Assembly (NCBI GenBank): GCA_951828515.1
Contig: OX639992.1
Coordinates: forward strand, 3,326,217-3,390,216
Direction: 5' to 3'
From: an uncultured Poribacteria bacterium
GTDB taxonomy: Bacteria > Poribacteria > WGA-4E > WGA-3G
Length of the DNA stretch: 64,000 nt
The translations under genes were made by a program, and so were the position numbers. Position 1 is the stretch's first letter, and every line of letters begins with the position of its first letter. The notes under the pieces are model-generated. The model was given only the letters and a program-made list of their open reading frames with translations, was not told the origin of the DNA and made no database searches. Positions 15,147 to 21,839 of the stretch are shown here, piece by piece.

Positions 15147-15872
15147 TTATTCTATTGTCAGGGCAACAGTGTTGGATGTGAGCGATGCCTTACCGAGCAG
15201 TGATTTGACGGGCAGATAAATATTGTTGGACTTCTTTTCAAGGCGTTTAATCTGTTGCTGGAGATCGTTCACTGCGGAACGTTTGTCTGCAGCGGAAACG
15301 TGTGCGTCTGAGACCTTCTGAATCCGCTTAATTTCCTCCTCTAATTCTATCACTTCTGGATGCCGCTTCTTCAAAAAGTCTCGGTAAACCGGTAACGCCA
15401 TCGTGAGTGTGATTGTGTAATTGCCTTTCTGAAATTCATAGTATTTTCGCAAATCCTCTAAGGGGACGACTTGTGTTGTGGCAGATTCCAGTTCAAATCC
15501 TCGGATACACTGGACAGATTTACTCCCTTTTTCGATGAAAATTTCTTCTGTGCTGGGCGGTGTAATTGAACGTTTGGGTTCAACAATGTTGCCGTTGGTA
15601 TCGGTTACTTTCAAGTGTGTGAACACACTGGATGTTGCAACACTGATAAAAGGAACGAGCAGATTAAACTCTCCGCCCCGAATACCGAGTTCAAGTGGGA
15701 TAGCCTCTTTAGAGGTGTAAGTCGACTTAGACGTTTTAAGAGAGAGGATAACACCTGAAGTAGCAGTCGCTACATCGGTTGGTGAAGATTGGGTCTGCAA
15801 ACTTGTGATGCAGCCTGCCGTGCTAAAAATCAGAAGTAGATAAGAAAGCGCGAGATTTTTAAATGTTTTCAT
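15147..15872 (-). CDS. putative lipoprotein, paralogue of the adjacent one
   Basis: A 241-residue protein with a lipoprotein signal (positively charged start, hydrophobic core, lipobox STAGC at about residue 21). The mature part has a beta-rich domain beginning LKTSKSTYTSKEAIPLELGI, then a helical charged segment (about 165-215, EVIELEEEIKRIQKV) likely to form a coiled coil, and ends NIYLPVKSLLGKASLTSNTV. It is clearly paralogous along its whole length to the protein encoded at 15885-16664, 12 bases upstream, so this is a tandem duplication. The beta domain looks like an extracellular Ig-like or intermolecular-binding fold, but I do not recognise a named family. Confidence 0.8.
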   Translation of the reverse strand: MKTFKNLALSYLLLIFSTAGCITSLQTQSSPTDVATATSGVILSLKTSKSTYTSKEAIPLELGIRGGEFNLLVPFISVATSSVFTHLKVTDTNGNIVEPKRSITPPSTEEIFIEKGSKSVQCIRGFELESATTQVVPLEDLRKYYEFQKGNYTITLTMALPVYRDFLKKRHPEVIELEEEIKRIQKVSDAHVSAADKRSAVNDLQQQIKRLEKKSNNIYLPVKSLLGKASLTSNTVALTIE

Positions 15873-15884
15873 GGAGAATGTTCC

Positions 15885-16664
15885 TTACTCTATCATTATT
15901 GTGATCTCGTTGGAGACAAGGGGTGCCTTCCCACGCCGCGATTTGACGGGTAGGTAAATGTCCTTCACCTCATCCTTGTGTCTCTCTTTAATAAATTTAA
16001 TCTGTTCTTGGTAATAGTTGAGAGCGTCCTGCTTTGCAGCGGTTTGAAGATTCGGGTCGCTCTGAATTCGTGCCAGATCCCGTTGCAACTCAACCACTTC
16101 TGGGTGTTCCTCGATTATGGATTCCCGGTAAACCTCCAACTCAATTGCAAGCGTTACGGCGTAAGTGCCGGGTTGTAACTGATAGTATCGCTGAATATCT
16201 TTCAGTGTCAGTTCCTGATTCGCGTCTGCTTTGAAGTCAAATCCGTGAATACATCGGATGGATTTTCCGTCTTGCTTTACATATTTCTGTGGGTTTTCTT
16301 GTGTAATCGCTCGCTTCGGTTCAATAATTTGCCCATTTGTGTCCGTCACTGTTATCTGCGTAAAGGCACCCTTTGTCGCAACACTAAAAGAAGGCACGAG
16401 AAGGTCAAATTTACCGTTCTGAATATTGAGTTCAAGCGGGATCTCTTCCTTGGCAGTATAACTTGTTTTAGGGGTCGAGAGTTGGAGTTCCACGAGCGGA
16501 CGTGGTGATTCTTCCGTCTCTGCTGTGGTGGAAGCAGGCGCGTCGGTTGCTGTTTGCATCGACTGCATATTTCCGAGGCACCCAGCAAGGGTAAAGACAA
16601 GTAGAAAGAGATAAGGATAAATAAATTTTGAGGTAATTTGCTTGTCAAGATTGCGAGGTATCAT
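15885..16664 (-). CDS. putative lipoprotein, paralogue of the adjacent one
   Basis: A 259-residue predicted lipoprotein, lipobox TLAGC at about residue 29 after a hydrophobic core. It shares with its downstream neighbour the segments PLELNIQNGKFDLLVPSFSV, VTDTNGQIIEPKRAIT, a conserved CIHGF cysteine motif and the ending DIYLPVKSRRGKAPLVSNEI. A charged helical segment (about 185-230) precedes that ending. Together they form a two-gene unit, probably anchored in the outer or inner membrane and facing the periplasm. The function is unknown. Confidence 0.8.
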   Translation of the reverse strand: MIPRNLDKQITSKFIYPYLFLLVFTLAGCLGNMQSMQTATDAPASTTAETEESPRPLVELQLSTPKTSYTAKEEIPLELNIQNGKFDLLVPSFSVATKGAFTQITVTDTNGQIIEPKRAITQENPQKYVKQDGKSIRCIHGFDFKADANQELTLKDIQRYYQLQPGTYAVTLAIELEVYRESIIEEHPEVVELQRDLARIQSDPNLQTAAKQDALNYYQEQIKFIKERHKDEVKDIYLPVKSRRGKAPLVSNEITIMIE

Positions 16665-18504: not shown

Positions 18505-18686
18505 GAGAGCCTCCAATGTAAAGCAAAGACACATTGCGCCTTAATGGCAGAATTGGGAAACGGCACTAAATCCGCCGCTTACGTTGAAAAATCGAACGCA
18601 AGAACTGCAATTTGTGGAGATAGTTTAATGGAAACTCAAAATTGTGTCAAACCAATTCTCAAAAATTTACCTCTTCACAAAAAATC

Positions 18687-18715
18687 TTGAACTTTATTAA
18701 TCCCTCGTGTATAAT
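18687..18715 (+). promoter_or_regulatory. sigma70-like promoter of the alpha-CTD/helicase locus
   Basis: TTGAAC (18687-18692), 17-bp spacer and TATAAT (18710-18715). The inferred start is about 33 nt before the first alpha-CTD gene. Confidence 0.75.
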
Positions 18716-18754
18716 CCGTAAAAATCTGATATTCCGACTATACGGAGATAGCAC

Positions 18755-19549
18755 ATGAAAATGCCTAAACTCGTCGTTGGATACCTTATGGATGACGAAC
18801 TGTTCGTCAAATCTTTTACGATTCCAGAATCTCACGATTGGATCAAGTGGTTAGCGAACGAGGAACTTGCTCAGTTTTTTGGGGAATTACTGGAATTGAT
18901 GATCCAAATTTCAGAGGAAAAGGAAGATAGCAAAGCACTTCAGACTTTTCTCGACTTTTGGCATGAAATTGCCTTAAGTTGGCGCGAAATGGCCTTAGGC
19001 GGGGAAGATCCTGAGATATTTGAAGAAGATAGCAAGACCCCTCCGACCGTCGTCACCGATTGGAGCGTAGATGCTTTGGAAGCTGCCTTAAAAGGGCAAG
19101 ATCCCGCGACGCTTTTGGATTCTCTTGCTGGTTTCATCGGAAAAGCCATGATCAGTTCTGAACGGGATGCCCTGGCAGATATTTTGGAGGCAGAACAGGA
19201 ATTGGATTCGCCCTGGGTAGATATCGTTGGCATGGAACAGGATTACCCTTCACCCATGCACGCTGGTGATGCTGAACCGGTGATACGTGACGTGACGGAA
19301 GCAGAGCAGGAGAAACATTTAGCATACGACATTTCCAAACTTCAACTCTCTGCTCGCGCCCACAACTGTCTTAAAAATGAAAATATCAAAACCGTCCGAG
19401 AACTCGTCGCAAAAATGGAATGGGACCTCTTGGAATACCAGGGGCTCGGACAAACGACGCTCAACGAAATCAAATCCGAACTCGCTGGCTTGGGGCTTTA
19501 CCTGGGAATGGATCTGTTCGACGAGGACGACGAGGAGGCATCATTCTAA
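18755..19549 (+). CDS. stand-alone alpha-CTD-like protein, copy 1
   Basis: A 264-residue soluble protein. The C-terminal 60 residues (about 193-252) match the RNA polymerase alpha subunit C-terminal domain: LQLSARAHNCLKNENIKTV, then GLGQTTLNEIKSELAGLG and LYLGMDL. Counterparts of the E. coli DNA-contacting residues R265, N268, C269, G296 and E302 are kept; K298 and S299 are both Thr. The alpha N-terminal dimerisation domain is absent. Instead there is a domain of about 180 residues starting KLVVGYLMDDELFVKSF, shared with the second copy at 20563-21249, and an acidic tail. Good ribosome site (GGAG, 7 nt). It ends at the start codon of a helicase gene (TAAATG), so the two were one operon. I infer a DNA- or RNA-polymerase-binding role. 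Confidence 0.85.
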   Translation: MKMPKLVVGYLMDDELFVKSFTIPESHDWIKWLANEELAQFFGELLELMIQISEEKEDSKALQTFLDFWHEIALSWREMALGGEDPEIFEEDSKTPPTVVTDWSVDALEAALKGQDPATLLDSLAGFIGKAMISSERDALADILEAEQELDSPWVDIVGMEQDYPSPMHAGDAEPVIRDVTEAEQEKHLAYDISKLQLSARAHNCLKNENIKTVRELVAKMEWDLLEYQGLGQTTLNEIKSELAGLGLYLGMDLFDEDDEEASF

Positions 19550-20482
19550 ATGCCCCGTATTTTTGATAATATTGACCAACCGCTGCTGCCCGCACTCCAA
19601 CAGACACTTGAAACTGCCACACATGCCGACTTTTGTGTCGGTTATTTCAACCTCCGGGGATGGCGAGGACTTGGATCTTATGTTGGGAATTGGGATGGCG
19701 GTGAAGGCGAATGCTGCCGTTTGCTTGTCGGGATGCAACGCTTGCCTGAAGAAGAACTCCGAGAAGCCAAGAAACTTGCTAAACAAGACAGCGGAATCGA
19801 CAATCAAGCAGCACTCCGTTTAAAACGAGGGTTAGCAGAGGAGTTCCGAGAACAGTTAACCGTCGGTGTGCCGACCCGTGAAGACGAAAGGGGGTTACGG
19901 CAATTGGCGCAGCAGCTTCGTGACGAGAAGGTAAAGGTAAAACTCTTTCTCCGACATACACTCCATGCGAAACTTTATCTAATCTATCGTTCCGACCTTG
20001 TCGCACCGACTGTGGGTTACCTCGGCAGTAGCAACCTGACGCTTTCTGGGCTGTCACATCAGGGAGAACTCAATATTGATGTTGTTGACTCGGATGCTTG
20101 CGAAAAATTGGAAGACTGGTTTGAAGACCGGTGGAATGACAGATGGTGCATTGATATTTCCAAGGAATTGGTTGAGATTATCGATCAGAGTTGGGCGCGT
20201 GAGGAACGCATTCCGCCGTATCACATCTACATCAAAATGGCGTATCATTTGTCACAGGAAGCGCGCGCTGGATTAACCGAATTTCAGATTCCACGCGAAT
20301 TTGAAGACAAACTGTTTGAATTCCAAACCGCTGCCGTGAAAATCGCAGCGCATCACCTCAATAGACGTGGCGGTGTGCTCATAGGCGATGTCGTGGGACT
20401 CGGCAAAACGCTGATGGGAACGGCACTCGCTCGCATACAGGTTCAGCCTTTGAACACAGTGAGTATATTGAGATTGGCGTGA
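19550..20482 (+). pseudogene. truncated PLD-domain SNF2-type helicase
   Basis: A 310-residue remnant of what is normally a protein of about 1000 residues. Residues 1-190 form a phospholipase D-like domain with HAKLYLIYRSD (HxK..D pattern) and GYLGSSNLTLSG. Then EFQTAAVKIAAHHLNRRGG leads into the Walker A motif GDVVGLGKTLMGTALA of an SF2/SNF2 ATPase. The reading stops 16 codons later. After the stop, in a shifted frame (20484-20560), RRYLVRRTRSFITENYAETD can be read, which looks like a later segment of the same helicase family. The simplest reading is an internal deletion that removed the rest of the ATPase core. The PLD domain alone could still be expressed, since the gene is coupled to the alpha-CTD gene. 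Confidence 0.75.
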
Positions 20483-20562
20483 GTTGATGCGCCGATATCT
20501 TGTGCGCCGCACGCGCAGTTTCATCACGGAAAACTATGCCGAAACGGATAAGGAGACTCCAG

Positions 20563-21249
20563 ATGAAAGATGCTAAACTCGTTGTCGGATACCTTATAGA
20601 GGACGAATTGCTTGTCAAATCTGTTCCAATTCCAAAGCCCCACGATTGGGTCAAATGGTTAACAGTAGAAGACCTCGTTGTGTTTTTTAAGGAATTATTC
20701 CAAGTCATAACACAGATTTCAGAGGGAAAGGAAGATAGCGAGACACTTCGGACCTTTCTCGATCGTTGGTGCGAAGCTGCGTCAGAATCGGAGCATTACG
20801 CGAGGATTTGGGAATCGCTCCCTCCTTCGCTCCAAAGAACTTTGCTCAATCCGGAACGGGATGTCTTGGCAGATATTACTGAGGGAGAACAGGAATTGGA
20901 TTCGCCCTGGATAGATATTATCGAGGACCAACATGAACGAGACCTGCTGTTCCCTAACATCTACAGGGAGCCGGAGATCGCTGATGTGACGGAACAGGAG
21001 CGGGATGATTACTTAACCCTATCTATCGCCGCACTCAGACTCCCTACCCGACCCCACAATTGTCTCGAAAGGGCAAACATCTATACCTTGCGCACACTCG
21101 TCGAAAAAACGGAAAAAGAACTACTACTGATCAGTAATTTCGGGATGGGATCGCTCCAAAAAGTCAAAGCAGGACTCGCTCCCATGGGGCTTTACCTCGG
21201 AATGGACCTGGACCCGGAGGAGCTCGATGAGGACGAGGACTACGACTAA
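20563..21249 (+). CDS. stand-alone alpha-CTD-like protein, copy 2
   Basis: A 228-residue paralogue of the protein encoded at 18755-19549. The N-terminal domain starts KLVVGYLIEDELLVKSVPIP and is followed by the shared LADITEGEQELDSPWIDII. A C-terminal alpha-CTD-like domain begins LRLPTRPHNCLERANIYTL and continues NFGMGSLQKVKAGLAPMG, LYLGMDL. The counterparts of R265, N268, C269, G296 and S299 are kept, but K298 is Gly and E302 is Lys. The tail is very acidic. The start at 20563 follows AGGAG by 7-8 bases; that ribosome site lies inside the helicase remnant. The divergence between the copies suggests different binding targets. Confidence 0.83.
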   Translation: MKDAKLVVGYLIEDELLVKSVPIPKPHDWVKWLTVEDLVVFFKELFQVITQISEGKEDSETLRTFLDRWCEAASESEHYARIWESLPPSLQRTLLNPERDVLADITEGEQELDSPWIDIIEDQHERDLLFPNIYREPEIADVTEQERDDYLTLSIAALRLPTRPHNCLERANIYTLRTLVEKTEKELLLISNFGMGSLQKVKAGLAPMGLYLGMDLDPEELDEDEDYD

Positions 21250-21363
21250 AACACTCTCAGAAATTGCTGGGACGCTTTCCACTGAAGGGAATTCTCTAAC
21301 AATCCCAATGCTTTAGCGTTGGGTCGAACCTCGTAATGCTCGTGCTTCTGTGCAAAAAAGGGG

Positions 21364-21393
21364 TTGACATATTGTCAATTTTTATGCTATAAT
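21364..21393 (+). promoter_or_regulatory. strong promoter of the structured RNA
   Basis: Consensus TTGACA (21364-21369), 18-bp spacer and TATAAT (21388-21393), with TGC making an extended -10. Transcription should start at about 21399, immediately before the first stem of the structured RNA. Confidence 0.75.
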
Positions 21394-21398
21394 TAGAG

Positions 21399-21745
21399 TA
21401 TCAAGCAGTGGGAGTCAATGCTATCTTCGCGAACCTTTTGCGAAGTGACTCCCCGTCCAAATAGCATAGAGGACTCTGCTTGTTGCTTGGAACAGAACCC
21501 GATTTAGATAACTACACCCCCAAGAGGACGCGTGTAGCCTAAACAAAGAAAACAAGAATACTGACGGGACAGATTCTCATTGACAGCAACCGTGATTGCG
21601 TCAAGTATCAGGGTGTTCCACATTCAAAACTCACCCTGTAGTTGCATAAGTGGTGCGTGTCGTAGACCCTTGCATTGTCTACGTGACTTAGGTTTCATTG
21701 TTACCCTTTGGGAACATATACCTTTGGAGTCGCTATAAGCGATAA
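21399..21745 (+). ncRNA. large structured RNA with pseudoknot (possible omega-RNA/HEARO-like)
   Basis: About 350 nt with at least eight exact helices. They are CAAGCAG/CTGCTTG (21402-21408 with 21476-21482), GGGAGTCA/TGACTCCC (21410-21417 with 21446-21453), CTTCGC/GCGAAG (21425-21430 with 21440-21445), CTACAC/GTGTAG (21512-21517 with 21532-21537), TTGAC+GCAA with TTGC+GTCAA (21580-21604), CAGGGTG/CACCCTG (21609-21615 with 21632-21638), CGTAGAC/GTCTACG (21661-21667 with 21677-21683) and TCGCT/AGCGA (21730-21742). The bulge ATGCTAT (21418-21424) pairs exactly with ATAGCAT (21461-21467), forming a pseudoknot. The IS605-like hairpins around it and the 3' segment GGGAACATATACC recall the HEARO/omega-RNA of IscB elements, but no IscB gene is present. 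The identity is a suggestion. Confidence 0.6.
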
Positions 21746-21839
21746 AACGCTGTCCGTATGCCTTGTGGAGGCGGATCTTCGTAAGAAGCCCACTGCTTTA
21801 GCTGTGGGAGTGCATCACCATGACAAAAGGAAGATACTA

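Follow-up and report, generated by a model that had tools for sequence, protein, structure and literature searches.

What are two genes for the C-terminal domain of the RNA polymerase α subunit (α-CTD) doing beside a broken helicase gene? The question is raised by a locus of an uncultured Poribacteria bacterium, whose genome is a single contig of 5.85 Mb, and by the window we refer to the whole stretch of 64,000 nucleotides that was analysed. The answer which we prefer, and to which we assign about an even chance, is that genes 1 and 2 encode antitoxin-derived DNA-binding regulators of a helicase/methylase operon.

Two α-CTD genes and a helicase remnant

Both proteins score well above the cut-off of 23.8 bits for RNA_pol_A_CTD (PF03118), protein 1 with 68.6 and protein 2 with 57.0 bits, and the domain furthermore matches solved α-CTDs by sequence (E 8e-14), while neither RNA_pol_L nor RNA_pol_A_bac, the Pfam families of the α N-terminal domain (α-NTD), is matched in either protein. 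The counterparts of R265, N268, C269 and G296 are retained in both proteins (R201, N204, C205 and G232 in protein 1), and an earlier note on this DNA, which had described two paralogous α-CTD genes with these residues and without the α-NTD, is thereby borne out. At the position of K298 protein 1 has T, as does the RpoA of the host, and protein 2 has G, and at that of E302 the residues are E and K, respectively. The genuine rpoA of the host is found elsewhere (C1, about 70 kb; L004). A structure model of protein 1 based on a four-row alignment was too poor for use (pLDDT 39). Gene 1 has orthologues of 92, 77 and 69% identity, and gene 2 has orthologues in loci L049 and L051, where the methylase or its remnant comes next.

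Table 1. Features of the locus, in window coordinates
Feature	Position	Strand	Evidence or remark
Gene 1 promoter and leader	18679..18754	+	Same architecture before N-family genes of both forms (33/50)
Promoter parts	A-tract 18679-18684; TTGAAC 18687-18692; extended -10 GTGTATAAT ending 18715		Conserved leader to ATG
Gene 1, 264 aa: N-domain, linker with 'ELDSPW' motif, α-CTD	18755..19549	+	Pfam PF03118, E 3.8e-19
Gene 1 N-terminal domain (aa 1-74), common to the 109-aa antitoxin-like short form	18755..18976	+	57% identity to L006 short form
Gene 1 α-CTD (aa 181-255)	19295..19519	+	
PLD-SNF2 helicase remnant, 310-aa ORF	19550..20482	+	94.6% identity to aa 1-297 of intact 1131-aa L006 helicase; PLDc_2, E 3.3e-10
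First deletion junction, 415 bp lost relative to L006 (L006 4474|4890)	20441..20442	.	blastn break
Second deletion junction, remnant (L006 5006) joined to gene 2 leader	20557..20562	.	blastn against L006; promoter missing
Gene 2, 228 aa: paralogous N-domain and α-CTD	20563..21249	+	Pfam PF03118, E 1.6e-15
532-bp insertion	21287..21818		

The stop codon of gene 1 abuts the start codon of the helicase at 19550 (TAA-ATG), just as had been noted earlier. What survives of the helicase includes the PLD domain with its HAK motif as well as Walker A, and a deletion that spares Walker A was indeed found; the gene was however broken by two deletions and not by one. The first, of 415 bp, causes a frameshift that ends in a stop at 20480-20482, and the second removed the end of the helicase, the promoter of gene 2 and intergenic DNA, so that gene 2 now has lost its promoter in the window. 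Gene 2 was previously thought to start within the remnant, but this holds only for a TTG at 20500, and the true start is the ATG at 20563. The 1131-aa helicase is intact in the 92% identical orthologue, and the break is far beyond chance. A tblastn search of the window yielded no methylase remnant, and there is no other helicase copy in the host genome. With the helicase destroyed and the methylase lost, genes 1 and 2 are orphans of a decayed operon; both remain open reading frames, although neither a toxin nor a helicase or methylase was found here as an intact partner for them. As a separate matter, the remnant with its PLD nuclease domain and HAK motif could in principle represent a free-standing nuclease.

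The order mandelate racemase-like gene, ThuA-like gene, locus is common to the window, L006, L049, L050 and L051, the first two labels being ones that we take from sequence resemblance, and the four other loci represent different stages of gain and loss at this site. Downstream of gene 2 there is an insertion of 532 bp, which L049 and L051 lack at the same site and of which the genome holds three near-full copies and one partial copy, this one counted. Its ends are hairpin-like and reminiscent of IS200/IS605-type elements, and it contains an internal TTGACA/TATAAT promoter-like sequence and has a stable RNA fold (z -3.2), with no match to this RNA-like insert in Rfam. It is probably the RNA element which the earlier note had assigned to an accessory island, and is better regarded as a separate mobile insertion. 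Elsewhere in the window, two adjacent paralogous lipoprotein-like ORFs of 241 and 259 aa are found on the minus strand (15147-16664).

An antitoxin-like family in a helicase/methylase operon

A survey of 85 genomes of the phylum revealed that the first 74 residues of the proteins define a Poribacteria family (the N-family) that occurs in two forms. The short form has 109 aa and a tail, GGG-x-x-W-x-x-x-K-x-E-I-G, that is strongly conserved among 35 aligned sequences, and where the toxin survives, its gene overlaps a ParE/RelE-superfamily toxin gene, the match to ParE_toxin (PF05016) being just above the cut-off in the three members scanned. Beside those short forms that are linked to the helicase, the toxin is in many cases truncated or gone. 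The long form, sampled as 16 genes in 14 loci, shares the N-domain and has the α-CTD in place of the antitoxin-like tail, which is reduced to approximately EL-x-SP-x-I with loss of the GGGK...KKEIGL part. The N-domain itself gave no PDB profile match and no Pfam family above cut-off, and a helix-turn-helix (HTH) was not matched for these proteins in Pfam or NCBIfam. The short form was modelled with a mean pLDDT of 82.7 in one good model out of five, the others being much poorer, and this model, a β-hairpin followed by a pair of long helices and, at the C-terminus, a helix-strand-helix tail, had no fold match in the PDB. No relatives of the family were found in viral contigs, and phage and plasmid records yielded RpoA-like α-CTD matches only, with the N-domain unmatched.

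By its domain the long form is thus kin to an antitoxin-like gene that overlaps a toxin gene, but of the traits of a type II antitoxin it lacks an adjacent toxin of its own and an intact toxin-binding tail. It might still neutralise a ParE/RelE-type toxin encoded elsewhere, with the α-CTD as a mere added DNA-binding module, and the N-domain common to both forms and the vestige EL-x-SP-x-I, present in nearly all long forms, would agree with this. We nevertheless regard it as very doubtful, for the remainder of the tail is lost, no toxin directly follows a long form (the one in L006 belongs to the short-form gene) and no N-family toxin was found in the genomes G053, G058, G076 and G057, while the host genome gave a single match of 28% identity that is interrupted by a stop. 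In this genome in particular an antitoxin role is unlikely, since there is neither an intact N-family toxin nor another helicase.

The intact unit in the phylum is a restriction-modification-like operon, in which the helicase (about 1130 aa) comes first, a small gene may come next, and a DNA methylase of Eco57I type (about 1080 aa) comes last. At the threshold used the helicase is present in 28 of the 85 genomes, and relatives with 36-60% identity among the listed matches are found on plasmids of cyanobacteria, Pelobacter and actinobacteria; a large DNA methylase follows the helicase in most loci inspected, and is of Eco57I type where scanned. In Poribacteria the gap between the two genes is occupied by a short form, which may or may not come with a toxin, or by a long form (L051, L052, L057), or is empty, and in Synechocystis PCC 6803, PCC 7338 and Picosynechococcus it holds an antitoxin/VapC pair. 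One and the same slot hence presents a series of antitoxin with toxin, antitoxin without toxin, and antitoxin domain with α-CTD. A link to the Synechocystis slr6095 system was considered and set aside, as the published slr6095-6097 are a type I M/S set and not this helicase/methylase pair.

About 17 of some 50 family genes share the strand of a helicase and are no more than 1 kb away from it, while a rough estimate scaled to genome size suggests that far fewer than one of them would do so by chance. The linkage proposed in the earlier note is therefore real, with five long-form and about a dozen short-form genes adjoining intact helicases, but its two-protein unit of α-CTD protein and helicase is not, the unit being helicase and Eco57I-type methylase with the antitoxin-like gene as an option. 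Nor do α-CTD genes regularly precede the helicase, a point that the earlier note had put as a question: the long form lies just upstream in two loci (L006, L053) but downstream in three, and in roughly one half of its loci no helicase is close by. It may also be mentioned that a permease gene, of the xanthine/uracil family in L054, precedes helicase/methylase, α-CTD, AlbA_2 and AAA genes in L054, L055, L056, L059, L060 and L091, which suggests that this site is an insertion hotspot for defence-like genes.

Capture, exchange and promoter of the α-CTD genes

Fifteen stand-alone α-CTDs form one clade (support 99/99) that is nested within the RpoA of the Poribacteria host family (83/98) and apart from the RpoA of other orders and classes, although with few columns the tree leaves the exact sister undecided. 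By this phylogeny the α-CTD was captured once, from the host family's own RpoA. The residues of the DNA-contact core are conserved in the long forms (R265 in 16/16, N268 in 15/16, C269 in 15/16, G296 in 16/16, and S or T at 299 in 16/16), whereas E261, R297, N301 and E302, invariant in 32 RpoA sequences of the genus, are variable; the sigma-contact position E261 is thus E in 32/32 genus RpoA but Q, R, E, G or P in long forms. A distinct Poribacteria protein of 610 aa, in which α-CTD domain(s) occur together with a match to sigma-70 region 4, was also observed (L106, 4392-6224), adjoining AAA-ATPase and trypsin/TPR genes.

That the domain was taken from the host's own RpoA, and that its setting is defence-like, could mean that it serves as a bait, luring or sensing phage proteins that attack the α-CTD of the host polymerase, and phage proteins acting on α do exist, such as Rac of phiKMV-like phages (PMC7552054). 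A bait should however mimic the surface of the target, but at the majority of surface positions the stand-alone domains depart from the host RpoA, which is invariant, and no linked effector was found with the long form, which makes this explanation improbable.

The α-CTD also has a history separate from that of the N-domain. Between L006_a and L049_a1 synonymous differences amount to 6/90 in N-domain plus linker and to 19/53 in the α-CTD (p 2e-5), between L052 and L055 to 7/84 and 17/54, respectively (p 9e-4), and the N-part of L055 groups with L052 (98/95), its α-CTD with L058 (100/98). By these patterns the α-CTD was exchanged between copies by recombination, and diversifying selection as the sole cause of its divergence is rejected because synonymous differences rise in it as well. 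A swapped DNA-binding part would also be expected of a specificity or recruitment subunit, whose N-domain binds helicase or methylase and whose α-CTD takes the enzyme to DNA in the way of target-recognition domains, and the position of the gene beside helicase and methylase and its TAA-ATG coupling to the former are consistent with such a role. It is rather unlikely, however, since seven intact helicase/methylase pairs (L089, L090, L091, L096, L098, L099, L100) do without an N-family gene, which is therefore not needed; furthermore long forms persist without helicase, and short antitoxin-like forms take the same slot.

With helicase and methylase gone from the window and the promoter of gene 2 lost, the genes could alternatively be non-functional relics, decaying fusions left by a lost operon. 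This we find quite improbable, as none of the 16 long-form genes sampled contains a stop and dN/dS is below 1 for every domain in every pair examined, helicase-less loci included; L049_a1 and L050_a, both from loci without helicase, give 0.26 for the N-domain, 0.31 for the linker and 0.59 for the α-CTD. By these ratios purifying selection acts on the long forms, those of helicase-less loci included.

Upstream, 33 of 50 family genes have a promoter of the TTG(A)/TATAAT type, in most cases with an extended -10. The leader that follows it is short and conserved, and at -42 to -38 there is an A-tract, which going by E. coli promoters we take to be a proximal UP site for the polymerase α-CTD. A search for a regulon of this promoter returned a few MazEF-like modules, so named by sequence resemblance. 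One of them is a pair of this genome (L162 around 1520; G000:C1:412322) with nearly identical promoter and leader, and others are found in G080 (L159, L161). Since similar promoters and leaders precede MazEF-like modules, the N-family promoter probably serves toxin-antitoxin genes of these bacteria in general, and being common to short forms and a MazEF-like module, the A-tract promoter is not specific to the α-CTD. The idea of a dedicated α-CTD operator is weakened accordingly.

A proposed regulator compared with known systems

For the regulator that we favour the following history may be envisaged. The ancestor would have been a Poribacteria-specific antitoxin-like protein of N-domain and toxin-binding tail, partner of a ParE/RelE-type toxin and encoded mostly in the gap between PLD-SNF2 helicase and Eco57I-type methylase; the toxin was presumably lost, and the α-CTD of the host polymerase took, on one occasion, the place of the tail, an order of steps that we infer. 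The product retains those α-CTD residues with which the minor groove of DNA is entered but lacks the conserved sigma-contact residue, and it is not expected to assemble into RNA polymerase, because the α-NTD is absent. Most likely it would bind to the A-tract of its own promoter, perhaps also to such tracts at other promoters, possibly as an oligomer formed through the N-domain, and the bound protein would compete with or stand in for the polymerase α-CTD. It might thus regulate itself and, by repression or by activation, set the dose of the restriction-like operon that is its presumed target, in the manner of a controller protein; as about every second long-form locus lacks a nearby helicase, this operon need not be the sole target.

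Kinship with antitoxins, a promoter of its own, the DNA-contact core, the lost sigma-contact residue, the missing toxin in this genome and persistence without helicase all favour a regulator. Against it stands an N-domain without recognisable DNA-binding fold. A bolder proposal, unlikely though worth stating, is that the captured α-CTD is an exchangeable DNA-recognition module that rivals the polymerase α-CTD for UP-element-like A-tracts, and hence makes the protein a polymerase-mimicking regulator or a sensor of phage attack for the restriction-like operon. Antitoxins and regulators of defence operons usually bind DNA through standard folds. Here a tail of the host polymerase was acquired in a single event, has been maintained by selection and has passed between copies, all in a toxin-antitoxin and restriction context; should it bind UP-element-like DNA, it would represent a natural separation-of-function α-CTD and a new control of restriction-like systems. 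Defence proteins with α-CTD-like domains are already known, as are restriction islands that contain toxin-antitoxin modules, and a limited literature search found no report of an α-CTD fused to an antitoxin-family domain.

Compared with RpoA, the long forms have the same C-terminal domain with the DNA-contact core kept, but they are without α-NTD, are changed at E261 and much of the surface, and are fused to the N-domain of an antitoxin family. PglW of type 2 BREX likewise carries a domain structurally similar to the α-CTD (PMC12839542), but it is a protein of 1400-1600 aa with kinase, NERD and wHTH domains, none of which is found in the protein here. Indeed P0001 matches the PADLOC PglW model over aa 77-243 only, with 29 bits, and reaches 24.4 against 990 with NCBIfam, and the NERD, kinase and iSTAND domains are absent.

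The ATP-dependent restriction enzymes SauUSI, CglI and NgoAVII likewise combine a PLD nuclease with an SF2 motor, and CglI and NgoAVII also have a methylase (PMC7913695, PMC4267653). The present helicase differs from these in having PLD domain and SNF2 motor in one chain of about 1130 aa with an Eco57I-type methylase as partner. It belongs neither to phospholipD_antiphage (NF042964), for which the L006 helicase scores 155.5 bits against a cut-off of 1100, nor to DISARM, as it reaches 125 bits against 610 for DrmD and its scanned partner, among neighbours that were partly scanned, is the Eco57I-type methylase.

The controller (C) proteins of restriction-modification systems are small HTH regulators, and with no HTH matched here the proposed likeness would be one of function only. 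Type II toxin-antitoxin systems with ParE/RelE toxins resemble the short form, an antitoxin-like gene overlapping a ParE_toxin-family gene, whereas the long form is without toxin-binding tail and toxin and has gained the α-CTD. A parallel in arrangement is the RptR/DarTG2 system of E. coli, a toxin-antitoxin module in a type I restriction-modification island with a dedicated small repressor (PMC12255303). As in the present case, a toxin-antitoxin module resides in a restriction operon; the families of regulator and toxin differ, however, and in Poribacteria the putative regulator and the antitoxin-like gene are relatives that occupy the same slot.
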